Assembly: GCF_038005985.1 (NCBI RefSeq)
Contig: NZ_JBBOUI010000001.1
Span: 2,500,001 to 2,564,000 of the forward strand
Reading direction: 5' to 3'
DNA length: 64,000 bases
From: Solibacillus sp. FSL R7-0682
GTDB lineage: Bacteria > Bacillota > Bacilli > Bacillales_A > Planococcaceae
This document shows positions 13,144 to 24,751 of this stretch, in pieces (the first letter of the stretch is position 1; each line of letters opens with the position of its first letter). The position numbers were made by a program, and so were the translations under genes. Under the pieces are notes generated by a model, which saw nothing but the letters and a program-made list of their open reading frames with translations, made no database searches and was not told the DNA's origin.

Positions 13144-13989
13144 CTATGAATGCATCATTAATTTCCGTTTTATTCGTACAGAAATGAACTCTAACATAAG
13201 CGCAACGATTAACGCACAATAGGTAATAGCCCCAACCTCATGTAAATCATAATAAAAGCTTGAGGCCATAAATAATTCAAAGCCAATTCCTCCTGCCGCT
13301 GCTGCTGCACCCATAGCAATTGCCACATCAAAGTTTGTCTCAAATCGTAAGAAAGTCCATGATACTAAGAATGAAGAGGATTGTGGCAGGACGACCGCGC
13401 GTATAATATGCCACCAATTGGAGCCAGATGCCCGTAATGCTTCAATTGTCCCTTCCTCAATTTCCTCAAAGGATTCCGCATATGCCTTCGTCAAATAGGC
13501 GATAGAATGGAGCATCATCCCTAGTACACAGGCAACTGCCCCTAAGCCTGCAACAATTGCTAAGATTAAAACCCATAATACAGTAGGCACAGCCCGAATG
13601 AAGGAATTAAACGCAATTATCATAGTTGCAACTTTACTTGGTGCTAAATTTTTCGCACTTAATATCGCAAGGAAAAAGGAAATTACCGCACTTAATAAAG
13701 TTGCAAGCAATGCAAGAGCGATTGTCATTCCAATTTGTAGTATGGCTGTCCCAAAAGTAATTTGGTTAAAGACTGGCTGTAAAAACATCATTTTTAAATT
13801 GCCTAACGTCATTGTGAGAGCAGTTTGCCAATCAATCTTCCCATAGTCTAGTAAAAATGGGCTAATCATTGTAAAAATTGCTAAGCTCCACAGTGTGAAT
13901 TGCATAACCATTGTAGCTCTTGTACGTTTTTTTATGAGGATACGTCCTTTTTTTACTGTTACATCTGTTAACGAAGGTACTGAATGCAT
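13144..13989 (-). CDS. phnE: Phosphonate ABC importer permease PhnE (second copy)
   Basis: 281 residues, about six membrane helices, EAA loop EALRASGSNWWHIIRAVVLPQ. Its start codon overlaps the stop of the first phnE, so the two permeases are translationally coupled and probably form a heterodimer with PhnC ATPases. It is the last gene of phnD-phnC-phnE-phnE. Confidence 0.9.
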   Translation of the reverse strand: MHSVPSLTDVTVKKGRILIKKRTRATMVMQFTLWSLAIFTMISPFLLDYGKIDWQTALTMTLGNLKMMFLQPVFNQITFGTAILQIGMTIALALLATLLSAVISFFLAILSAKNLAPSKVATMIIAFNSFIRAVPTVLWVLILAIVAGLGAVACVLGMMLHSIAYLTKAYAESFEEIEEGTIEALRASGSNWWHIIRAVVLPQSSSFLVSWTFLRFETNFDVAIAMGAAAAAGGIGFELFMASSFYYDLHEVGAITYCALIVALMLEFISVRIKRKLMMHS

Positions 13990-14777
13990 TATGAAATCGC
14001 CCTCCTAACTGAATTAGAAGTAAATTCAATCGCAAATACTACAATGATGATTGTTAATGTAATAAGACCGACCATTTCATAGTTCAGCATTTTATAATAC
14101 AAATCGAATAAATAGCCGATACCCGTACCTGTTAATATCCCCACAAGGGTTGCACTTCGAATATTTGTTTCAATCATATAAAATACCCAGCTGAGCATTT
14201 GTGGCATCGTTTCAGGAAGTACACCTTTTAACACCATTTGTAAGTAAGTAGATCCCGAAGCAGTTAATGCCTCCACTCCGTCTGAACTTGCTTCATCAAT
14301 CGTTTCGATAAACATCCGCACTAAAAAACCGAAAGTTGAAAAGAACAGCGCAAAATAGCCGGTAATTACGTTATGACCAAAGGAAATAACAAGAATTAAA
14401 GCCCATGCTACAACTGGAATATTGCGTGAAATAGAAGCAATTATTCGTGTTACATAACCTAAATATGAATTCACTTCTGTTGTTTTAGCACCTAGCATTG
14501 CAAAGAATAGCGCAAAAATAGCTGCTGAAGTTGTCGCAAATACCGATAAAACAATCGTTTCCCAAAGACGTTCTAACACTTTTGGTAAATTTGCTATCGC
14601 TTCAGAAGTAGGGATCAAATTCGAGAACATCCATACAATTGTCCCGGGAATTGCTTGAATTGACTCTAAAAAACTAAAATTCGTCATTTTAGCAGAACTA
14701 TATGTTAATACGATGAATACGATAAAGATCGCTGTTGCTTGCCACTTCTTTCTTCGTAAAATATTTGATCCTGTCAT
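13989..14777 (-). CDS. phnE: Phosphonate ABC importer permease PhnE (first copy)
   Basis: 262 residues with membrane helices and EAA loop ALTASGSTYLQMVLKGVLPE. It follows phnC by about 12 nt and overlaps the second permease gene. Two diverged permeases rather than one PhnE is common in Gram-positive phosphonate systems. Confidence 0.9.
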   Translation of the reverse strand: MTGSNILRRKKWQATAIFIVFIVLTYSSAKMTNFSFLESIQAIPGTIVWMFSNLIPTSEAIANLPKVLERLWETIVLSVFATTSAAIFALFFAMLGAKTTEVNSYLGYVTRIIASISRNIPVVAWALILVISFGHNVITGYFALFFSTFGFLVRMFIETIDEASSDGVEALTASGSTYLQMVLKGVLPETMPQMLSWVFYMIETNIRSATLVGILTGTGIGYLFDLYYKMLNYEMVGLITLTIIIVVFAIEFTSNSVRRAIS

Positions 14778-14789
14778 ACTTTCCTCCGA

Positions 14790-15668
14790 CTATTCTGTAA
14801 TTAATTCATCGATTGATGTACCGTATATTGCTTTAATAGCTGATGCATCTAATTTTTCTGGCGCTCCATCAAACACTTTATTTCCTTTACTTAGTCCAAT
14901 AATCCGGTCAGAATATTTCATCGCAACTTCAACTTGATGTAAGTTTACTAATACCGTGATGCCCATCGATGTTGAAATCTCCTTTAAATGTTCCATAATA
15001 ATTTTTGAAGCATTCGGATCAAGGGAGGCAATGGGCTCATCACAAAGTAATAATTTTGGTTCTTGAACAAGCGCACGTGCTATCCCAACACGTTGCTTCT
15101 GACCTCCACTTAATTGGTCGCAGCGTTTGTAAATATGCTCCTTCATTCCAAGCTTTTCTAATATCGATAGTGCAAGCAATTTTTCTTCTTCTGTATACAT
15201 TCCAAAAACGCCCTGCAGTGTGTTTTTATAACCAAATCGTCCGTGTAAAACATTTTCAAATACTGTCAATCTCGAAACTAAATTATAGTGCTGAAAGATC
15301 ATCCCAATCTTTGTTCGTTCTTTTCGTAAATCTTTTTTATTGAGCAGCCTGATGTTTTGCTCATTAAAAATGATTTCACCTCTTGATGGCTCAATCATTC
15401 GATTAATGCATCGTAAAAGTGTGGATTTCCCTGCACCTGAAGGACCGATAATGGAGACAAATTCGCCTTCCTTTAAAGAAAATGAAACATCATTTAATAC
15501 ATTTGTTTGATGATCGTAGCTTTTATGAATGGAGTTTAGTTGTAGCATTGAATAGGATTGATTTGGAGTTGGCACTTTTTTCTGATCCTTTGGTGGCATA
15601 GATGGTACCGGGTTATTTCCAGTCATATGCTCCTGTTGAATTGGTTTTGCTAATACCGAAGTGGACAT
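14790..15668 (-). CDS. phnC: Phosphonate ABC importer ATPase PhnC with N-terminal extension
   Basis: 292 residues. ABC core: Walker A IGPSGAGKST, IGMIFQHYNLVSRLTVFENV, signature LSGGQKQRVGIARAL, Walker B LLLCDEPIASLDP, and HQVEVAMKYSDRIIGL. A non-homologous N-terminal stretch of about 40 residues, rich in Pro and Gln, precedes the core. AAGGGAG lies 9 nt before the ATG at 15668, whereas the internal ATG at 15548 has no ribosome site, so the extension appears to be translated. It is separated from phnD by a terminator-like hairpin. Confidence 0.9.
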   Translation of the reverse strand: MSTSVLAKPIQQEHMTGNNPVPSMPPKDQKKVPTPNQSYSMLQLNSIHKSYDHQTNVLNDVSFSLKEGEFVSIIGPSGAGKSTLLRCINRMIEPSRGEIIFNEQNIRLLNKKDLRKERTKIGMIFQHYNLVSRLTVFENVLHGRFGYKNTLQGVFGMYTEEEKLLALSILEKLGMKEHIYKRCDQLSGGQKQRVGIARALVQEPKLLLCDEPIASLDPNASKIIMEHLKEISTSMGITVLVNLHQVEVAMKYSDRIIGLSKGNKVFDGAPEKLDASAIKAIYGTSIDELITE

Positions 15669-15700
15669 CGATACAAACTCCCTTTCAAATTGTATTTTCT

Positions 15701-15740
15701 GAAAAAAAGCTGCACTTAAAATTTTTCAATTTTAGTACAG
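15701..15740 (-). terminator. Intrinsic terminator or attenuator between phnD and phnC
   Basis: Minus-strand hairpin CTGTACTAAAATT-GAAA-AATTTTAAGTGCAG (15740-15710, one G-U) is followed by a run of seven T. It would make phnD transcript exceed phnC-phnE transcript. Confidence 0.7.
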
Positions 15741-15809
15741 CCTGCTTGTACAGCATAATTTCCCTATGACTTTAAGTTTCCATTTTTCCAAACAATATTT
15801 CCGAAGTGG

Positions 15810-16856
15810 TTATTTAGATAGTTCGCGAATTGGGTTGAACCAAGCATCTTCAACTTGTACAAATCGTTCTTCCTCTGATTTCGTAAATAACGCTGGCTCT
15901 TCTAATTCCTTTGGTTTGAAAATATCTGTATTATTTGCAGTTTCATCCGATGTCATCGCTTGAACTATTTGATCAATTTCTTCTTGTGTTAAAACATCTT
16001 TGTTTGCCGCGAATGGCGCATTTAATACTGGGGTTACTTGAATTAATGTAAATTCTTTCCCTTTTAGCGTGTTAAATGGTGCTGCCGCATCATCACGTAC
16101 TTTATAAATTGATCCTGGTTTATTTGCTTCGCCTTCTATAAGTTCCACGTAAGATGAAACACATGTGTCACAAAATGCTGCAACATCTGAACGACCCATT
16201 AACATATTAACTGCAGAGCCTTGATGAGAATCTCCGAATAAAACCGTTGGATAAACTTCGTTGCCTTCCATTAACTGTTCTTGTGTTAAATTTTTATCAC
16301 TAAAATGTGCAATAATCGAACTTGTTGGAACTTTAAATCCTGAAGTTGAAGACGCAGATACAAATGAAATGGATTTCCCTGCTGTTGCATTTAATGAAAA
16401 TTCACCATTATCTTTGTACACTTCAGCTTTTTCCTTTGGAACGGCTAACCAGCTGAAGTAACGTGCATCTTCTAATGTACCTGAAGCACCTGATGGTACA
16501 ACTAATGGTATGATGTTTTCATTTTTATTTTTTGCCTCAATATAGCCTTGCGCACCCATGAACGCAATGTGCCCATTTCCATTTGCAATTGTTTCAATCG
16601 CAATCGCGTAATCTGTCGTTAATTTATGTTCCACATCTCTTCCTGTAGCCTCTTTTAATAATTCGCCAAATGCATCTCGAGATGGTCCCATTTCTGCTCC
16701 GGATTCATTTGGATACCAGACGATAACAAGAGGATCTTTTTCATTTGCTCCAGTAGATGCTGGTTCATTAGAATCTCCTATTTCAGTTGAGTTACATGCA
16801 GCCAAAACTAAAGCACTAAAAATTCCTAACAGAAATAATTTCCACCGATTTGTCAT
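15810..16856 (-). CDS. phnD: Phosphonate-binding lipoprotein PhnD
   Basis: 348 residues with signal peptide and lipobox LAAC. PhnD features: PLVIVWYPNESG start of the mature domain, TTDYAIAIETIANGNGHIAFMGAQGY, and SASSTSGFKVPTS phosphonate-binding loop. GGAG precedes the ATG. It delivers phosphonates to PhnC/PhnE. A PhnF-type operator lies about 40 bp upstream, so it has its own control although it lies downstream of the lyase operon. Confidence 0.92.
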   Translation of the reverse strand: MTNRWKLFLLGIFSALVLAACNSTEIGDSNEPASTGANEKDPLVIVWYPNESGAEMGPSRDAFGELLKEATGRDVEHKLTTDYAIAIETIANGNGHIAFMGAQGYIEAKNKNENIIPLVVPSGASGTLEDARYFSWLAVPKEKAEVYKDNGEFSLNATAGKSISFVSASSTSGFKVPTSSIIAHFSDKNLTQEQLMEGNEVYPTVLFGDSHQGSAVNMLMGRSDVAAFCDTCVSSYVELIEGEANKPGSIYKVRDDAAAPFNTLKGKEFTLIQVTPVLNAPFAANKDVLTQEEIDQIVQAMTSDETANNTDIFKPKELEEPALFTKSEEERFVQVEDAWFNPIRELSK

Positions 16857-16973: not shown

Positions 16974-17795
16974 TTAACATTTCATTAATAAATCGATATT
17001 TGGTAAATCCTTTGCTAAGTATTGGCCAAGTTGTACCGTTGATCCATATTTACCGTGAAAATCGGAGCCGCCTGTTAACAATAAGTCGTACTTGTCAGCC
17101 AACTTCTCTATTCGTTCTCGATGGGTTGCTGTATGATCGGGATGAACATACTCAATTCCATCTAATCCTTCTCTCACTAACTCCTCAGCGATGTCAAAAG
17201 AATCGAGTTGACCTGGATGAGCGATGACTGCAATTCCACCATCTTTCTTAATCGCTTGTAGTGCCTCCAAGGCATCAATATAGTATATATCGCCTGCAGC
17301 AACCCCCGCTCCTTTAAACAGTGAACGATACAGCGCTTGGTAGTTTTTTTCATCATACGACTCTTCAATAAGAGCATTCATAATATGTTGCTTATAGAGG
17401 GTGCCACTAATGTGAGCAAATTGTAATGCGTCCTCCTCCTTGACATTGAATCCGGCATTTTGTATGCATGCTAGCTGCCATAATGAATGCGCGTGCCTTC
17501 TAGCCAATAATGGTTTACATAATGCATTAATAGCTGGGCAAGCACCTCGAAAACCATAGCCTAGCATATGCACCTTCCGCTTGCGTTTAAAATCATAGGC
17601 TGATATTTCAACACCAGGAATAAACGTCATTTCATATTGACGTGCAAGTTGCCTCCCTTCCTCATGGTGCTTCGTCGTATCATGATCGACAACACCTAGA
17701 TGGGAAATGCCTGCTGCCTTTGCTTGTTGAAACAATGCTTCAAGAGATTCACTACCATCTGAATAACGGCTATGTGTATGCAAATCGATTTTCAT
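16974..17795 (-). CDS. PHP-family phosphoribosyl cyclic phosphate phosphodiesterase (PhnPP-like)
   Basis: 273 residues with PHP-domain metal motifs DLHTHSRYSDGS, GVVDHDT, IPGVEISAYD, AVIAHPGQL and GGSDFHG. Characterised PHP homologues in C-P lyase operons (from Eggerthella lenta) hydrolyse both ester bonds of 5-phosphoribosyl 1,2-cyclic phosphate, giving ribose 5-phosphate and phosphate. No metallo-beta-lactamase PhnP is present, so this enzyme would finish the pathway. Its start overlaps the phnL stop by 4 nt. The assignment rests on family plus operon context. Confidence 0.82.
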   Translation of the reverse strand: MKIDLHTHSRYSDGSESLEALFQQAKAAGISHLGVVDHDTTKHHEEGRQLARQYEMTFIPGVEISAYDFKRKRKVHMLGYGFRGACPAINALCKPLLARRHAHSLWQLACIQNAGFNVKEEDALQFAHISGTLYKQHIMNALIEESYDEKNYQALYRSLFKGAGVAAGDIYYIDALEALQAIKKDGGIAVIAHPGQLDSFDIAEELVREGLDGIEYVHPDHTATHRERIEKLADKYDLLLTGGSDFHGKYGSTVQLGQYLAKDLPNIDLLMKC

Positions 17796-18490
17796 AGAAG
17801 TACATCCTCTTTTTCAACGATTTTCATTGTAAACACATCATCACATAACCCTTCCATAAATTCTAAATCATGAAAAATACCAATAAGAGTCGTCCCTTGA
17901 GCCTTTAACTTTTCAATGGATTCGCGAACTTTTATTTTTGAAGCTTGATCTAAACTTGCTGTTGGCTCATCTAATAAAAGTAAGCGTGGTTCTTTTACAA
18001 TGGCTCTAGCAATATTAAGCCGTAGCTTTTCACCACCAGAAAAATTATTCGGATAACTATTCCAAAGCTTTTCATCTAAGTCAAAATGTCGTAGTGCATC
18101 TTTTGCTTTCTCTATTGCATGATCCATTTCAATTCCGATATCCAAAAGAGATTGCGTTACTAGTTGTAACGCAGTTGTTCTTGGCATAACACTGAGAAAC
18201 TGCGAAACATAACCAATTTCATATTTTCGTAAATATACAATTTGTCTTGGTGTCGCTGATAATAAATCAATCTCACCAAAAGCTTCTGATTGAAAAAGAA
18301 TTTTTCCACTTTGCGGCTCATACGTCCGATAAATACTTTTTAAAATTGTCGATTTACCGCTGCCGCTTTTTCCAACAATCCCTAAAAAACCACCTCGTTC
18401 AACCTGTAAAGAAATCCCCTCTAATGCTTGAAACGTTTTGTTTAGATGATGAATTGTAAAAGATTTATGCAAATTTTGAATTGTTAGCAT
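17792..18490 (-). CDS. phnL: C-P lyase complex ABC protein PhnL
   Basis: 232 residues: Walker A VGKSGSGKST, PhnL-specific YEIGYVSQFLSVMPRTTALQLV, signature FSGGEKLRLNIARA, Walker B LLLLDEPTASLD. PhnL works with PhnG, PhnH and PhnI to load phosphonate onto the ribose of ATP or GTP. It sits between phnM and the PHP phosphodiesterase gene. Confidence 0.93.
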   Translation of the reverse strand: MLTIQNLHKSFTIHHLNKTFQALEGISLQVERGGFLGIVGKSGSGKSTILKSIYRTYEPQSGKILFQSEAFGEIDLLSATPRQIVYLRKYEIGYVSQFLSVMPRTTALQLVTQSLLDIGIEMDHAIEKAKDALRHFDLDEKLWNSYPNNFSGGEKLRLNIARAIVKEPRLLLLDEPTASLDQASKIKVRESIEKLKAQGTTLIGIFHDLEFMEGLCDDVFTMKIVEKEDVLL

Positions 18491-18502: not shown

Positions 18503-19675
18503 TCATCGATAATTTGTTTGTAAAATGACATTGCCGTCAACAATCGTCGTCGTCACAACCGGATAGTCATCTGCCATTTGCTCAATAATAATTAAGTCCG
18601 CTTTTTTACCTACTTCAATAGATCCGATTTCATTCGCCATATTGACAGCACGCGCAGGGTTAATCGTTACAAGCTGGAATAAACGATGTAAATCTTCTTC
18701 ATATTCTTTCGCAAGCTTAAAAATACCGTGGAGCATAGCAGGTGGATAATAATCACTACAAATAATATCAATGACACGAGCTTGTATCGCTTCACTTGCA
18801 CTTAAATTACCCGAATGGGAACCACCAATTAATATATTTGGTGCCCCCGCAATTGTTTGAAGACCCATTTTTTTTGCTGCCTTTGCCACATCTAACGTTA
18901 TCGGGAATTCACTAATGGTTGTACCATAGGAATGGACTAACTCGAGTTTTGCAATATCATCATCGTCATGTGACGCCACGGCAATATTTCGTTCAATCGC
19001 AAGACGACTCAAACGTTCAATTTCTTCTAACGACATTTTCGATTTATCTACCTGTTCTTGAATTAAAACATCCGCCTCTTGATTGCTCATGTCTCGGTAG
19101 CCGCGCATAATCTCCTTATAAATTTCTAAATTACGATATTGGCCTTGTCCTGGTGTGTGATCCATAAACGATAGTAAGTGTACCTTCCCATCTAAAATAT
19201 TGTTTTCTAGAACAGGAATTTGATCGATCGAATCAATTTCAAATCGCGCATGTAAGCGATGTCGAATTAAATGCGGTTCCAAATGTGTCGCGTGAATAGC
19301 GTCTACACTTCGTTGTACATTTTCAGGATTTCTAATGAGTTTATGTGAATATTTATCATCTCCGTAATAAGAAAGTGAATGGAAAATTGTCGTAATGCCA
19401 TGGGTCATTAAAATACGTTCACTTTCACGTAGCCCAATTTCAGTACTCATAATTGACGTTGGACGTGGACTCATAATTGTTTCAATATAATCGGAATGAA
19501 TATCAACAAAACCTGGGGACACGTAGCCTCCCTTAGCATCAATTACCTCGTAGCCTTGTAAATTGGCTTCATCCTCAGCGATGATTGCCTGAATGTTTGT
19601 TCCCTCTATTAGTACAACATGATTTTCTAAAAACTGCTTTTCCGTCACTATAATTCCATTTTTAATCGCAAGCAT
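18503..19675 (-). CDS. phnM: RPnTP diphosphohydrolase PhnM
   Basis: 390 residues of the amidohydrolase superfamily. It has the PhnM form of the metal motif (FVDIHSDYIETIMSPRPTS), metal ligands in SHDDDD, and the late TINPARAVNMANEIGSIEVGKKADLIII tail. It releases pyrophosphate from ribose 1-phosphonate 5-triphosphate to give the 5-phosphate used by PhnJ. It follows phnK by about 12 nt. Confidence 0.93.
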   Translation of the reverse strand: MLAIKNGIIVTEKQFLENHVVLIEGTNIQAIIAEDEANLQGYEVIDAKGGYVSPGFVDIHSDYIETIMSPRPTSIMSTEIGLRESERILMTHGITTIFHSLSYYGDDKYSHKLIRNPENVQRSVDAIHATHLEPHLIRHRLHARFEIDSIDQIPVLENNILDGKVHLLSFMDHTPGQGQYRNLEIYKEIMRGYRDMSNQEADVLIQEQVDKSKMSLEEIERLSRLAIERNIAVASHDDDDIAKLELVHSYGTTISEFPITLDVAKAAKKMGLQTIAGAPNILIGGSHSGNLSASEAIQARVIDIICSDYYPPAMLHGIFKLAKEYEEDLHRLFQLVTINPARAVNMANEIGSIEVGKKADLIIIEQMADDYPVVTTTIVDGNVILQTNYR

Positions 19676-19687
19676 CCATATGCCTCC

Positions 19688-20527
19688 CTATAGTAATGAA
19701 TAAACCAATTGTTGTGTGTACGCATGCTGTGGATCTTCTAATACTTGATCCGTTAAGCCATGTTCAATAATTTCTCCATTGAGCATGACAATTGTTCGAT
19801 CCGCAAGCATTCGTATGACAGCTAAATCATGAGAGACAACAATCATTGAAATGTTTAATTCTCGTTGAATCGATTTAATTAAATCGAGCACATCTGCTTG
19901 CACGGATAAATCAAGTCCTGTCGTTACTTCATCTAATAGTAAAATTGGTGGATTATTGGATAATGCCTTTGCAATTTGTACCCGTTGCTGCATCCCACCA
20001 GAAAAATTTTGCGGTGCTTCCTTACTCCGATGTACGGGAATCTTAACATGTTGTAAAAGGGATAAGCTGCGTCCTTCCATACTGCCTACATGTCGATTGC
20101 CCGCTGCGATTTGCTTTTCCGCAATATTGCTTAAGGATGAAAAATTCATTTTCAAACCAAGTATCGGATTTTGATAAACCATGCCTAAAATGGTATTCCG
20201 TATAAACCGTTGCATTTGAGAAGACTCTGTAAAAATATTAACCTTTCCGTCCTCATAATCTGCTAAATAGCCTTCTCCAGACGTAATTGGCTCATCAAAA
20301 TACAAGCTCTTCATAAATGTCGATTTTCCACTGCCACTTTCGCCTACAATGCCTAAAATTTCTCCTCTATATAAATCAAAGGACACATTACGACAGGCAA
20401 ATACCGTTTTACAATGCGGACAAAAGTTCTTTTCTAGTGCTGGCTGAGTGTCTACACAATACTTGCACCCTTTGCCATATTGCTTATTTAAATTTCGTAA
20501 TGAAAGAACAGGTTGCTCGTTTTTCAT
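19688..20527 (-). CDS. phnK: C-P lyase complex ABC protein PhnK with Cys-rich insertion
   Basis: 279 residues: Walker A VGESGSGKST, signature FSGGMQQRVQIAKAL, Walker B LLLDEVTTGLDLSVQ, typical PhnK. Before the first ABC strands there is an insertion with cysteines at residues 21, 24, 36, 39 and 45 (CKYC, CPHC, then C45), which looks like a zinc ribbon. I believe E. coli PhnK lacks it, but related Gram-positive PhnK proteins may share it. PhnK docks on PhnJ in the E. coli complex. The gene overlaps the phnJ stop by 4 nt. Confidence 0.92.
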   Translation of the reverse strand: MKNEQPVLSLRNLNKQYGKGCKYCVDTQPALEKNFCPHCKTVFACRNVSFDLYRGEILGIVGESGSGKSTFMKSLYFDEPITSGEGYLADYEDGKVNIFTESSQMQRFIRNTILGMVYQNPILGLKMNFSSLSNIAEKQIAAGNRHVGSMEGRSLSLLQHVKIPVHRSKEAPQNFSGGMQQRVQIAKALSNNPPILLLDEVTTGLDLSVQADVLDLIKSIQRELNISMIVVSHDLAVIRMLADRTIVMLNGEIIEHGLTDQVLEDPQHAYTQQLVYSLL

Positions 20528-21369
20528 TTTGCTCCCACCCTTTGCTGTAAAATCTCTTGCATATAGCTCGTATCATTGCATACATAATACGTTTCACCTG
20601 TCGCTTCATCGGTTAGCTCATCTAAATACACATTCGTTAAGCCCGTTTCACGACAAGCCTTTCCTTCGAACTGCTCTACAACAAATGGATAGTCTTCAAA
20701 GGCTAAGCTTGCTACATTTGTATAGGGAGGCACTGCGTATATTTTTTTCTCACGCCCCGCACCAAACAAAATCAGTGCATCACTTTGATGGATTTTTGGA
20801 TTATCGAAGCGAGGGATTGGACTTGGATTCATGACATAGCGATTGTTGACCATGACAGGGTAATCTGCACCTTGAGATGTTTGGTTGTAACGCATAATTT
20901 GCTCAAATAGCATTAAATAGGCACCACTATATTCTTTTTCCGCATGATAACGCTTCGTTTTATATTCGCTCTTTTCAATTTTTCGAAGTGGCTCTGGCTC
21001 TGGTACTTGTAGCACTAATAACTGGTCCTTCCGAAGTGGGATTTCTGGAATACGGTGACGTGACTGTATGATCGTCGCATCCTGTGTACGTGTAGTCGTT
21101 GTTACACCAGTCGTTTTTGTTACTAAGCTTTTAATATTCACCGCATTTACTGAATCATCTGCTCCTTGATCCATAACCTTTAGTATGTCGCCTTTCCCAA
21201 TTAGCGCTAATGTTAATTGAATGCCTCCAGTCCCCCAACCTCGACCAATCGGTAACTCTCTTGAAGCAAAGGGCACCTGATAGCCTGGAATTGAAATCCC
21301 TTTTAAAATTGCTCTACGAATTTCACGTTTTGATTGTTCATCTAATAGTGCAAATGGTAATTGTCGCAT
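20524..21369 (-). CDS. phnJ: C-P lyase PhnJ with altered cysteine signature
   Basis: 281 residues aligning along its length with E. coli PhnJ as I recall it: IPGYQVPF (glycyl-radical Gly, here Gly29), GWGTGGIQLT, DQGADDSVNAV, SRHRIPEIPL, FGAGREKKIYAVPP. PhnJ is the radical SAM-type enzyme that breaks the C-P bond. The known signature is CX2CX21CX5C: three cysteines hold the [4Fe-4S] cluster and the last forms the thiyl radical. Here it reads CX2TX21CX5M: Cys239, Thr242, Cys264, Met270, with no other cysteine. Base-by-base reading of 20550-20660 confirms this. The gene is otherwise intact and coupled to phnI and phnK. Confidence 0.93.
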   Translation of the reverse strand: MRQLPFALLDEQSKREIRRAILKGISIPGYQVPFASRELPIGRGWGTGGIQLTLALIGKGDILKVMDQGADDSVNAVNIKSLVTKTTGVTTTTRTQDATIIQSRHRIPEIPLRKDQLLVLQVPEPEPLRKIEKSEYKTKRYHAEKEYSGAYLMLFEQIMRYNQTSQGADYPVMVNNRYVMNPSPIPRFDNPKIHQSDALILFGAGREKKIYAVPPYTNVASLAFEDYPFVVEQFEGKACRETGLTNVYLDELTDEATGETYYVCNDTSYMQEILQQRVGAK

Positions 21370-22451
21370 TATTTGACCTCCCGTTTTATCGCACGCATTT
21401 GTTCGAGCTTTGATTGGAATGTGACATAATGTGGCATTTTCAAATGTGAGATAAAGCCTGTCGATTCAATAATATCCACATGTAAAAGAACAAACTCTTC
21501 GTCGTGAAGTGCTGTATTGCCCCCTGTTTCAAGAGCATGCTCAACAATTGACATCGCAATTGCCTTCGTTTCGTTTTGGCCAAAGCATGCACCGTAGCCT
21601 ACATCAAATTCTAAAACTTGCTGTTGTTCATCATCTACATTCATTGGAATAAAGGATTCTACTTCCGTAAGCTTGATTTCTCCTATGAAATACGGATCTT
21701 CCTCATCATCGATGGCCACATGAATTGGTTGATACCCTACGCGCACCTCTCCCACATTTGGATGCGACGCACCGTAGCCACGAATCCCTGCATAGCCTAG
21801 GGATGTAACGGTACCTGTTTGGCCTCGCGTTAAGGTTTGTAGTCGCTGAGATCGGTTCGTTGGAAACGAAATCGCCTGCTTCGTCACATCGCTCGGCTCG
21901 GTATCATTATTTGGATACGTCCGTATTAACCCTTCTGAACGTAAATAGTCCATTACTTTCGGTAAATTTTCGAGCATTAAATTGCTCGTTTCTGGTTTAT
22001 CCTTTTGCTCAAATTGTACCTTTTTCGCTTGCACATCTGCTTCACACTCATCAATTAAATCGAAGTTTAATAAGCGGTGGAAATAATCATGGGTTGCCCC
22101 TAATAGTTGCCCACCTGGAATGTCCTTAAAGCTTGAAGATATTCGACGAATAACAAACATATCTCGCGGATCTGTTACTGTTGAATAGTAAAGACGAGGC
22201 AGTGTTGAACGATGAGCTCGTAATAGAAAGACCGCCTCCTCTTGATTCCCTTCACTTTGCTTCATCGCTAAAGCAGCTAAGCGCTCACTATACAGACTAC
22301 TTTCAGACATAACCTGGTCAATAAACCCACGCATCGTCGCTTGGATTGTGTCCAAGGCAATATGCTGCCCATATTTGACCCGCTCATATTCTAAATGCTC
22401 TAACGATGCCTGAATGGGTTCTGCGCCACCACGAACTGCAACATATGCCAT
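21369..22451 (-). CDS. phnI: C-P lyase core protein PhnI
   Basis: 360 residues with PhnI features GGAEPIQASLEHLEYERVK at the start, GATHDYFHRLLNFDLIDECEA and GYAGIRGYGASHPNVGEVRVG. PhnI is the nucleosidase core that swaps the base of ATP/GTP for phosphonate, with PhnG, PhnH and PhnL. It overlaps phnH and phnJ by single start/stop codon contacts. Confidence 0.94.
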   Translation of the reverse strand: MAYVAVRGGAEPIQASLEHLEYERVKYGQHIALDTIQATMRGFIDQVMSESSLYSERLAALAMKQSEGNQEEAVFLLRAHRSTLPRLYYSTVTDPRDMFVIRRISSSFKDIPGGQLLGATHDYFHRLLNFDLIDECEADVQAKKVQFEQKDKPETSNLMLENLPKVMDYLRSEGLIRTYPNNDTEPSDVTKQAISFPTNRSQRLQTLTRGQTGTVTSLGYAGIRGYGASHPNVGEVRVGYQPIHVAIDDEEDPYFIGEIKLTEVESFIPMNVDDEQQQVLEFDVGYGACFGQNETKAIAMSIVEHALETGGNTALHDEEFVLLHVDIIESTGFISHLKMPHYVTFQSKLEQMRAIKREVK

Positions 22452-23014
22452 TATTCTTCCACCTCTTCTATTTGTGTTGTACGAGGGAGCGCAAATAGAT
22501 TGGCCGAGCTGTCGACAATAACTACGTCTACCCCTAGTGGGAATTCTTTATTTTTGTGCGCTCGTTCCTTAATAAAGGAAGTTGGTAAATTACATGAAAT
22601 GATTCGTTTTGTTTGTATGCCTGGACCTGTAAGCTTATAAGTTTTAGGTTGCGTTTCATTAGAAATTTCAATAATGATTGTTGCGGATTGCTGCGGGTTT
22701 ATTAAGTTGCCAATTTTTGCTGAATGAATTGCTCGGATGACTTGCTCTTCTGTTGCATCCGACGAAACAATAATAAAATCCGCCAACTCGATAGCAGCTT
22801 TTTTTGCCCCAGTCCATGCTTGAATATCAATGTCTCCTTCTGAAAAAGAAAAATAGCTTACTTCACCATCTAATAAAGTGATACATAAGGATGCTGTTGC
22901 ATCATACAAGCCAGCCATCGAAAGCTGTACATCTAGCTTTTTTAGTTCACCCGGTGAAGCAAAGCATTCCATTATCGCTCGAAAAGTTTGTTGTGTAAAA
23001 TGAACTGTTTCCAT
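22451..23014 (-). CDS. phnH: C-P lyase core protein PhnH
   Basis: 187 residues, starting METVHFTQQTFRAIMECFASPGE, with LLDGEVSYFS, GNLINPQQSATIIIEI and LTGPGI segments characteristic of PhnH. It is a structural partner of PhnG and PhnI in the core complex. The stop overlaps the phnI start. Confidence 0.92.
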   Translation of the reverse strand: METVHFTQQTFRAIMECFASPGELKKLDVQLSMAGLYDATASLCITLLDGEVSYFSFSEGDIDIQAWTGAKKAAIELADFIIVSSDATEEQVIRAIHSAKIGNLINPQQSATIIIEISNETQPKTYKLTGPGIQTKRIISCNLPTSFIKERAHKNKEFPLGVDVVIVDSSANLFALPRTTQIEEVEE

Positions 23015-23024
23015 GCATACCCTC

Positions 23025-23447
23025 CTAAGTCGTCATCGTATCGAACTGTACTTTTGTTCGTTCTATAGATCGTTTCACTTCTTGCTGCGCTTGCTGCTGT
23101 AAAAGTTGAAGCTCATTTAAAATAACTTCCCATTCCTCTATTTCTGGAAGGTTTGCATTGTAGGCTGCGTCAATTATGGCTAATGCTCTCGCAAGCTCTG
23201 GTTCATGCTCAATGACTAATCCGACACCTAATGCGTTTTGTAATTTAACCTTTGCCTCTGTTACGAGCACTTCTCCAATATAAAATAGTGATTGTTGAGC
23301 AGATTCACGCAACTTAATCATGACAAGACCTTCTCTAGCCGGTTGCAAATCGAACACCTCATAGTTTTCGATCATTGTTTGAGCCATGTCGATTGCTTGC
23401 TTACGCCCTACATTAATTAATAATTTCGTTCGAGTAGCTCGATTCAT
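23025..23447 (-). CDS. phnG: C-P lyase core protein PhnG
   Basis: About 140 residues starting MNRATRTKLLINVGRKQAIDMAQ. Family segments: REGLVMIKLRESAQQSLFYIGEVLVTEAKV and ALAIIDAAYN. The ATG at 23447 has AAGGGG 8 nt upstream; an ATG at 23510 has no ribosome site and lies next to the operator. It is the first gene of the lyase operon. The operator at 23519-23535 overlaps a possible -35 (TTGTAA), giving repression by PhnF. Confidence 0.9.
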   Translation of the reverse strand: MNRATRTKLLINVGRKQAIDMAQTMIENYEVFDLQPAREGLVMIKLRESAQQSLFYIGEVLVTEAKVKLQNALGVGLVIEHEPELARALAIIDAAYNANLPEIEEWEVILNELQLLQQQAQQEVKRSIERTKVQFDTMTT

Positions 23448-23518
23448 TCCTTCAGCCCCTTTCACCTTTAAGTTATCTTGTTGCCAAGCTACGTAGTGAA
23501 AAGGTTTCATAAAGTTCT

Positions 23519-23640: not shown

Positions 23641-24342
23641 TTAAAACTGAAAATGAAAACGATCTGTCCTGTAAAGGATTTCCGTATATTCAAGTAAAAC
23701 GTCACGCTCTGCATCCCAATTATCCGATTCAACCCTAACTAATGGAACTAAAACTTCACAGTTTAGTAAAGTACGCTCAAGCTCACTCGGAAAAGAAACG
23801 GTCAATTGTGAAAATGTACTTTCAAACTGCTGAACCCCATTTCGTTGGTAAAATTGATACATCGATGTTAACCGGTGATCGATTTGTTTTACATATGGCA
23901 TATGATCTACAACTATATACGAACGATGAATCGCAGCAGGCTCATGATCGATAAATCGAAGCCGTTCTACTAAATATAATGTATGCTGTTTTACATAAGG
24001 TTTACTATAGATCGCATGGTCAAACGGTAATTGCTCTAATTTTGTTACAATTGATTTATAATTCGATGTTTGCTGTATCATTTTTTCACTGAAACTTATA
24101 TCCCCAGACATTACAACCGCTAAAGGTTTTTGGCGATGTTTGATGAAGCGTCCTACCCCTTTTTGAGAATAAATTATCCCCATCTTTTCAAGGAGATTAT
24201 AAACATGACGGACTTTAATACGAGAAAGCTTGAATTGATCTACTAGCTGGTATTCACTTGGCATCTTGCCATCTTCCTCAAATTGCCCTGAAAAAATACC
24301 TTGTAATAAATAATCCTTCACGAGTAATTCCTGCTTATCCAT
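23641..24342 (-). CDS. phnF: GntR/HutC-family phosphonate repressor, PhnF-like
   Basis: About 233 residues: N-terminal winged helix of the GntR type (MPSEYQLVDQFKLSRIKVRHVYNLLEKMGIIYSQKGVGRFI) and a C-terminal UTRA effector domain (HTLYLVERLRFIDHEPAAIHRSYIV). It is encoded just before the lyase operon and has its own terminator. The ATG at 24342 is favoured (GGTGGGG 8 nt upstream) over an in-frame GTG at 24351. It probably binds the TGTARA-N5-TYTACA sites before phnG and phnD. Confidence 0.85.
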   Translation of the reverse strand: MDKQELLVKDYLLQGIFSGQFEEDGKMPSEYQLVDQFKLSRIKVRHVYNLLEKMGIIYSQKGVGRFIKHRQKPLAVVMSGDISFSEKMIQQTSNYKSIVTKLEQLPFDHAIYSKPYVKQHTLYLVERLRFIDHEPAAIHRSYIVVDHMPYVKQIDHRLTSMYQFYQRNGVQQFESTFSQLTVSFPSELERTLLNCEVLVPLVRVESDNWDAERDVLLEYTEILYRTDRFHFQF

Positions 24343-24751
24343 TTCATACACCCCACCTATAAAATAATTCCTTTCTTACATTATACTTACTTGTCTTATG
24401 TAACTTTTTTGAAAGGAATCGAGGTGAAATAAGTGATACCAACGGCTTGAACTACTTGAGTAGTCCATTGTATAAATTAAATAAATATTTTGTGAATTAA
24501 AATCAATGTAATATCAACCTTCTTTACAAAAGAAACAAATGGTTTACTCTATAAGATTAAGTACAAGAAATTATACATTAGGTGTCCTTTTATAAATGGT
24601 TCATTATAACAGTTGACTTGGAATAAAGGACGTTGTAGATCTTCCTTTATTTTAATAAGAAAAAAGCTTTATATAAAGCCCAGTTAGTGAAACAAAAACG
24701 CTTATGAAACAATCGTGACTGTATATGGAGATAGGTTCCATTTTTATATAC
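24343..24751. other. Intergenic region without recognised gene
   Basis: About 400 bp of AT-rich sequence between phnF and an acetyltransferase gene. No supported ORF, RNA or operator was found; it holds the phnF promoter region by position. Confidence 0.5.

Follow-up and report, generated by a model that had tools for sequence, protein, structure and literature searches.

A cysteine-poor PhnJ in a Solibacillus phn operon

The stretch of DNA analyzed here (the window) comprises 64,000 nucleotides of Solibacillus sp. FSL R7-0682 (RefSeq assembly GCF_038005985.1, contig NZ_JBBOUI010000001.1, positions 2,500,001 to 2,564,000 of the forward strand) and carries a phn operon for carbon-phosphorus lyase (C-P lyase), whose phnJ gene encodes a PhnJ with two of the four signature cysteines replaced. 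The window protein matched Pfam PF06007 with 446.9 bits over profile positions 4-274 of 275 (cut-off 25), which places it in the PhnJ family, and was the single PhnJ match in the whole genome. Further cysteine-poor PhnJ scored similarly against this profile (Thermus HB8, 415.8 bits; Mesorhizobium, 394.4; Vaginisenegalia, 425.1). An NCBIfam scan of three PhnJ returned zero matches, the presence of a PhnJ model in that library being unchecked.

In vitro work on the Escherichia coli enzyme supports a role for S-adenosylmethionine (SAM) and a [4Fe-4S] cluster in PhnJ. E. coli PhnJ (alpha-D-ribose 1-methylphosphonate 5-phosphate C-P lyase; PDB 4xb6, 7z15-7z19) was aligned with the window protein over residues 5-272 (E 4e-100). 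In the alignment to 4xb6_D, the CX2CX21CX5C signature of canonical SAM/[4Fe-4S] PhnJ was absent from the window and CX2TX21CX5M stood in its place with the spacing kept. Cys244 and Cys272 of E. coli corresponded to Thr and Met (Cys266 is also replaced in 31 of the 50 variants described below), whereas Gly32, Arg107, His108, Gln124 and Cys241 were all present. The translated protein contained two cysteines only, Cys239 and Cys264. An earlier note on this DNA had claimed that two signature cysteines were absent at exact spacing, with no further cysteine and with Gly29 kept, and the alignment bears this out.

The operon was read on the minus strand from position 24351 to 13144 in the order GntR regulator, phnG-H-I-J-K-M-L, a PHP-domain gene, putative phnD, phnC and two phnE genes (Table 1). 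The full C-P lyase set phnGHIJKLM was thus found together with transporter genes, the latter named by eye. Neighboring phn genes were open frames, overlapping or closely spaced, and the earlier note had called them intact and overlapping. The residues of the PhnI-PhnJ His site (PhnI His219, His328 and His333; PhnJ Arg107, His108 and Gln124) were all found in the window. Scans for promoters and terminators, for a promoter pattern and against a defence library gave nothing of use. Within the genus, PhnJ occurred in 4 of 16 genomes, a patchy distribution that reflects loss or transfer.

Table 1. Features of the phn operon in the window (positions in window coordinates; E. coli equivalents by alignment to 4xb6_D)
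Feature	Position	Strand	Basis
GntR/UTRA regulator, PhnF-like by domain and position	23641-24351	minus	PF07702, PF00392
phnG	23025-23510	minus	PF06754
phnH; without the Cys36/Cys175 typical of most canonical Bacillota PhnH compared	22451-23014	minus	PF05845
phnI; histidines of the Zn His site kept	21369-22451	minus	PF05861
phnJ, 281 amino acids, cysteine-poor (CX2TX21CX5M)	20524-21369	minus	PF06007 profile match
Gly29 codon (E. coli Gly32, proposed glycyl radical); present in 50/50 cysteine-poor PhnJ	21283-21285	minus	alignment
Arg104-His105 codons (E. coli Arg107/His108, contacts to ligand modelled at Zn site)	21055-21060	minus	alignment; role from accessible part of PMC9947105
Gln121 codon (E. 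coli Gln124, ligand contact)	21007-21009	minus	alignment; role from accessible part of PMC9947105
Cys239 codon TGT (E. coli Cys241); Cys in 130/130 PhnJ scored	20653-20655	minus	alignment to 4xb6_D
Thr242 codon ACG (E. coli Cys244); Ser/Thr in 50/50 cysteine-poor PhnJ	20644-20646	minus	alignment
Cys264 codon TGC (E. coli Cys266); retained in 19/50 cysteine-poor PhnJ	20578-20580	minus	alignment
Asp266 codon; Asp in 130/130 PhnJ scored	20572-20574	minus	alignment count
Met270 codon ATG (E. coli Cys272, proposed thiyl-radical cysteine)	20560-20562	minus	alignment
phnK; CX2C...CX2C insert common to canonical relatives	19688-20527	minus	Pfam
phnM, triphosphate diphosphatase	18503-19675	minus	TIGR02318, 422.3 bits (cut-off 390.55)
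phnL, ATP-binding cassette ATPase	17792-18490	minus	best PDB match E. coli PhnL
PHP-domain relative of phosphoribosyl 1,2-cyclic phosphate 1,2-diphosphodiesterase	16974-17795	minus	NF041661, E 7e-91, 304 bits, below model cut-off 500
phnD, phnC, phnE1, phnE2, putative phosphonate transporter	13144-16856	minus	open reading frames; homologues adjoin phnJ in relatives; named by eye, no library search

Distribution and residue conservation of cysteine-poor PhnJ

A total of 132 distinct PhnJ were collected, and the 130 with all four signature sites readable were scored (the partial proteins L110 and L049 were dropped). This set is non-random, and its plasmid records were picked by hand (spread rows, then the top matches to Thermus). 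All four cysteines were present in 80 of the 130 (CCCC), and 50 were without two or three of them. These 50 variants comprised 21 from Caryophanaceae (the window's family), 21 of Salinicoccus type together with Vaginisenegalia, and 8 from Thermus thermophilus and alphaproteobacterial plasmids.

Within the window's family, the only one in its order, PhnJ was present in 54 of 261 genomes, and 49 of the 54 proteins were read (5 were not fetched): 21 were variant, the window's included (77-100% identity), 27 were canonical (67-74%) and one was partial (L049). In each of the 21 closest, the second site was Thr and the fourth was Met or Leu. Two members of the same genus were without Cys264 as well; variants were also found in Lysinibacillus, Metasolibacillus, Caryophanon and Ureibacillus. 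In L049 (G153:C2), phnJ lay in two pieces in different frames and is broken or mis-sequenced, unlike the intact gene of the window. The order of G759, presumably Staphylococcales, had PhnJ in 20 of 157 genomes, all 20 being variants that keep only the first cysteine (two Salinicoccus species with identical proteins included), and Vaginisenegalia massiliensis supplied one further variant. In a phylum draw of 398 genomes, variants were found in 0 of the 20 genomes outside the family that gave a full-strength PhnJ match; in a class draw of 398 genomes, they were found in 2 of 17 besides the window's family.

Two distinct variants were found in Thermus thermophilus, on plasmid pVV8 of the common laboratory strain HB8 (WP_014677597.1) and in SNM7-6, and six more came from alphaproteobacterial plasmids. 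These resemble the window protein in keeping the first cysteine and a CX2[ST] motif within phnGHIJKLM operons, but form a separate clade and share 47-54% identity with it (five compared). The fourth site was Met in Thermus and Gly or Ala in the alphaproteobacterial variants. Plasmid pVV8 is described as rich in phosphonate metabolism genes in the accessible part of PMC5529391, citing Ohtani et al. 2012. Haematobacter massiliensis plasmid pOT1-5 (L212, 115000-160000) carries a cysteine-poor phn operon as well as a canonical one, with about 18 kb between the phnJ genes, which offers a natural side-by-side comparison. Microvirga sp. VF16 plasmid NZ_CP069355.1 (L208) gave nine PhnJ places by tblastn and two by megablast and possibly carries several divergent phn operons. 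Among 50,697 phage records, one contained a PhnJ match (Pseudomonas phage Y12, OQ572413.1), which could be host DNA in the record.

Across the 130 PhnJ scored, the first cysteine (Cys239) and Asp266 were present in every protein. The second site of the 50 variants was Ser (27) or Thr (23), the third was Thr (21), Cys (19), Leu (4), Val (3), Ala (1), Met (1) or Ile (1), and the fourth was Met (42), Gly (5), Leu (2) or Ala (1); Gly29, Arg104, His105 and Gln121 were present in all 50. The constancy of the first cysteine and the restriction of the second position to Ser or Thr in variants had escaped the earlier note. A cysteine followed at the third residue by Ser or Thr is a known monothiol redox motif. 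Both TGT and TGC were used for Cys239 in all three variant groups, and both TCN and AGY codons were used for Ser at site 242 in each of the two groups having Ser, a synonymous mixture which indicates that these residues have been maintained through silent change.

For comparison of invariant positions, 26 Bacilli variants were set against 66 canonical PhnJ of the Bacillota set over positions 5-272 (omitting L152 and one row cut at its N terminus). In the canonical set 85 positions were invariant or had a single exception; at 11 of them some variant differed, and only at A24, C242, C264 and C270 did more than 2 of the 26. Position 24 (window 21298-21300), five residues before the glycyl site, was Ala in 65 of 66 canonical proteins and Gly in 21 of 26 Bacilli variants. 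One canonical PhnJ (L184) had Gln at the His105 site.

The PhnI motif containing His328 and His333 was present in 26 of 26 Bacilli variants, and a pattern search found the His219 motif in 21 of 26, the alignment adding three of the remaining five (L159 and L162 were not looked at). All three histidines were present in the aligned variant PhnI of two Thermus and three alphaproteobacteria. PhnH Cys36 was found in 31 of 39 canonical systems versus 0 of 26 variants, and Cys175 in 29 of 39 versus 1 of 26. Joint loss of these two cysteines was considered as a specific partner trait and rejected, as distant canonical systems are also without both; it is at most a regional correlate, and a link between PhnH residues 36/175 and the PhnJ site is possible.

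Operon context, selection, origins and candidate partners

Besides the window, all 13 operon genes were present in 17 of 20 Caryophanaceae variant loci; in the exceptions, no gntR was found (L057 and L069) or phnE1 and phnE2 were missing and phnC was partial at the contig end (L070). Loci L158, L159, L161 and L162 had all 13 genes, with the gntR match 1 to 5 kb off phnG in L158 and L162, and the Vaginisenegalia locus was missing the PHP gene. Genes phnG-M were annotated in both Thermus plasmids, Mesorhizobium and Haematobacter. An IS66 element lay between phnM and phnC in Haematobacter, phnCDE were not found within the examined stretch of Mesorhizobium, and phnK was absent from the (incomplete) gene table of Nitratireductor. 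Among the top clusters listed for open reading frames of at least 90 amino acids in the fetched stretches, no extra gene was common to the variants as a whole; the largest variant-only neighbor cluster there was an amidohydrolase/peptidase-like gene, present in 8 of 26 and absent from the window.

Selection was estimated as the ratio of nonsynonymous to synonymous substitution rates (dN/dS) by pairwise Nei-Gojobori counting, using pairs with dS of 0.15-1.2 (pairs are not independent). Median dN/dS of phnJ was 0.042 in variants (17 pairs) versus 0.059 in canonical relatives (7 pairs), with 0.037 in the Salinicoccus type (16 pairs); for phnI it was 0.048 (12 pairs) versus 0.074 (4 pairs). The phnJ variants of Bacilli are under strong purifying selection, with no relaxation.

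In a tree that kept the trait columns, the first 26 variants formed one clade (92/95). Origins were further assessed on trees using 19 of the 42 Bacilli variants. A quick tree built without the C-terminal region (27 variant and 79 canonical rows) needed three changes, its starred branches forcing at least two, and in it the Thermus and alphaproteobacterial variants formed one branch (SH-like approximate likelihood ratio test, SH-aLRT, 99). After removal of four long-branch rows, constraining the Bacilli variants together gave a likelihood 6.5 higher than the free search had found. Two origins of cysteine-poor PhnJ are likely on these trees; convergence on CX2[ST] is likely but not proven.

Partner proteins were examined as sources of cluster ligands, which the earlier note had put forward. 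PhnK carries an insert, CX2C-X11-CX2C-X5-C (window 20393-20467, phnK residues 21-45), resembling a small metal-binding ribbon. This insert was present in canonical family members, but the four variant PhnK examined from Thermus, Mesorhizobium and Haematobacter do not have it; PhnK was rejected as ligand donor, the insert being equally present beside canonical PhnJ. In a comparison of nine phn proteins, no cysteine column was fixed in variants and missing from canonical family members, which eliminated new ligand cysteines in PhnG, H, I, K, L, M, PHP and D as well; new cysteines common among the 21 variants were H44 (15/21), M123 (17/21), PHP86 (13/21) and L162 (residue 162 of PhnL; 12/21). The PhnGHIJKLM set of Thermus SNM7-6 contained two cysteines in total (PhnG 65 and that of PhnJ) and the HB8 set three (in PhnJ, PhnK and PhnL), with only that of PhnJ common to both. 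A [4Fe-4S] cluster held by three cysteines from one copy of each protein is therefore excluded in SNM7-6, where other proteins or non-cysteine ligands are still conceivable sources. Given the shared PhnK insert, the missing variant-fixed column and the few cysteines of the Thermus sets, ligand supply by a partner is disfavored. An extra activating enzyme was likewise rejected, since radical-SAM counts were level across 16 genomes of the genus (12, 11, 14 and 12 Pfam matches in the four with PhnJ; 10-13 in the twelve without).

Interpretation and rival explanations

As far as sequences can tell, three of the four E. coli cluster/radical cysteines can go while Cys239, Asp266, Gly29, the ligand pocket, the PhnI His site and the operon stay. 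With the His-site residues, Gly29 and the Cys241 equivalent kept and two or three of the other cysteines lost, the simplest reading is that the cluster is dispensable and the first cysteine essential. The cysteine-poor complexes are probably active C-P lyases. It is about an even call that the PhnJ they contain is a cluster-free variant whose single essential thiol is Cys239, within a C-P lyase that is complete in other respects and maintained by selection. Such a complex would still split the C-P bond and, less certainly, might do so without a PhnJ-bound SAM/[4Fe-4S] cluster; Cys239 in its CX2[ST] monothiol motif may then take part in the reaction as thiolate or thiyl alongside Gly29 and the metal site between PhnI and PhnJ, with the radical possibly coming from a housekeeping activator, oxygen or the His-site metal. 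By analogy with pyruvate formate-lyase and other glycyl radical enzymes, the least that such a complex would require is a glycine and a single essential cysteine; unlike in those systems, no dedicated activating enzyme was seen beside the phn operon, nor any excess of radical-SAM proteins in the genus. A different metal or radical arrangement, as the earlier note had suggested, remains the best class of candidate explanation. We hold more tentatively, and on balance doubt, the wider proposal that C-P lyase has no need for a PhnJ-bound [4Fe-4S] cluster, that the CX2C half of the site turns into a CX2[ST] monothiol in cysteine-poor forms, which have probably arisen at least twice, and that the working thiol is the equivalent of E. 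coli Cys241 rather than of Cys272. If it were true, the accepted radical-cysteine assignment would be wrong or not general, and C-P bonds could be cut by an enzyme form free of an oxygen-sensitive cluster.

Several observations weigh against a cluster-free enzyme. In the accessible part of PMC7916636, Cys241, Cys244 and Cys266 of E. coli PhnJ are assigned to the cluster and Cys272 to the attack; the same text points out the distance problem. Cys264 was retained in 19 of 21 Caryophanaceae variants, a hint of a remaining role. Median dN/dS of phnG (0.157 in variants versus 0.122 in canonical relatives) and phnH (0.208 versus 0.135) was higher in variants, and that of phnJ in Thermus and alphaproteobacteria was also higher (0.19, 14 pairs), so that constraint there is weaker or the estimate poorer. 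In an approximately unbiased (AU) test run without four long-branch rows, a single origin of all variants cost 21.3 log-likelihood units yet was not rejected (p-AU 0.179). Phosphoribosyl 1,2-cyclic phosphate 1,2-diphosphodiesterase consumes the cyclic product of PhnJ, and retention of a relative of this enzyme in the window suggests that the PhnJ product is still made there, since the relative would be useful only then; the two Thermus operons had no annotated PHP, PhnP or PhnN and fall outside this downstream-enzyme argument. In the accessible portions of the literature, no variant PhnJ was found with a measured activity, metal or radical.

The four-cysteine module could instead be a structural, treble-clef-like metal site in all PhnJ, lost here as zinc ribbons are lost, with every C-P lyase, the canonical ones too, cleaving the C-P bond at the PhnI-PhnJ His site. 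This is unlikely, albeit the foremost of the rivals. Zinc is mentioned at the module in the solved structures (PMC11978286 and PMC7916636, in their accessible parts), and PMC9947105, as far as its text is accessible, places the cluster site about 30 Å from Gly32, calls the mechanism unresolved and describes a Zn site with the PhnI histidines that binds a ligand modelled as the cyclic product. The His-site residues were kept in the variants examined. The order of a Cys knuckle, a beta hairpin (249-264) and a helix (267-280) fits what we take to be a treble-clef likeness, in a low-confidence model (mean predicted local distance difference test score, pLDDT, 56) too weak to place residues. Some ribosomal proteins exist with and without zinc-ribbon cysteines and have likewise lost a four-cysteine site while the rest of the protein was retained, but the PhnJ variants differ from them in holding on to one cysteine throughout and in having only Ser or Thr at the site that follows it by three residues. 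Were the site purely structural, there would be no need for Cys239, which is present in 50 of 50 variants though its partners are lost, and the E. coli in vitro work, which PMC7916636 also reports in its accessible part, speaks for a SAM/[4Fe-4S] role.

Somewhat less probable is a complex that no longer cleaves C-P bonds, in which the PhnGHI step is kept and PhnJ is a scaffold for PhnK and PhnL in another reaction. At least two cluster or radical cysteines are missing in all 50 variants, and a canonical and a cysteine-poor operon on one Haematobacter plasmid would be expected under a division of labor. The invariance of Gly29 and of the ligand-pocket residues speaks against a scaffold, as do the phnM, cyclic-product diphosphodiesterase relative and transporter genes retained in the window and the unrelaxed selection on phnJ in Bacilli. 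Fe-S clusters with non-cysteine ligands exist, and a cluster still held by Cys239 with such ligands, or by the cysteines of another protein, is assigned a slightly lower probability again. Cys264 is present in 19 of 50 variants and a ligand protein encoded elsewhere in the genome is conceivable, but counted from aligned position 5 the variants have a single PhnJ cysteine in 26 cases, two in 22 and three in 2, the PhnK insert is not specific to the variant operons and is absent from four variant PhnK, and the SNM7-6 set has only its two cysteines. Decay, sequencing error or misannotation, for which the missing residues alone would speak, is highly improbable and already contradicted by the conserved replacements seen in 50 distinct proteins of three groups and by purifying selection in Bacilli. 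The earlier note's judgment that this is not decay holds: the change runs through the whole clade, the operons examined are for the most part complete, and selection on phnJ in Bacilli is unrelaxed.

Among the matches listed in the open-access literature, no title or abstract start described a cysteine-poor PhnJ, and the accessible parts of PMC9947105, PMC11978286, PMC12413358, PMC7916636, PMC5529391 and PMC10574752 do not mention such a variant; subscription papers were mostly uncovered, and a prior description is possible. The accessible text of two papers uses the four PhnJ cysteines as support for PhnJ function or as a primer target, so that cysteine-poor systems could be overlooked or judged dead. 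A natural variant that keeps nearly all but the cluster cysteines separates what C-P lyase needs from what can go, and the textbook C-P lyase mechanism may not be universal, a question that the plasmid operon of Thermus thermophilus HB8 makes directly testable.

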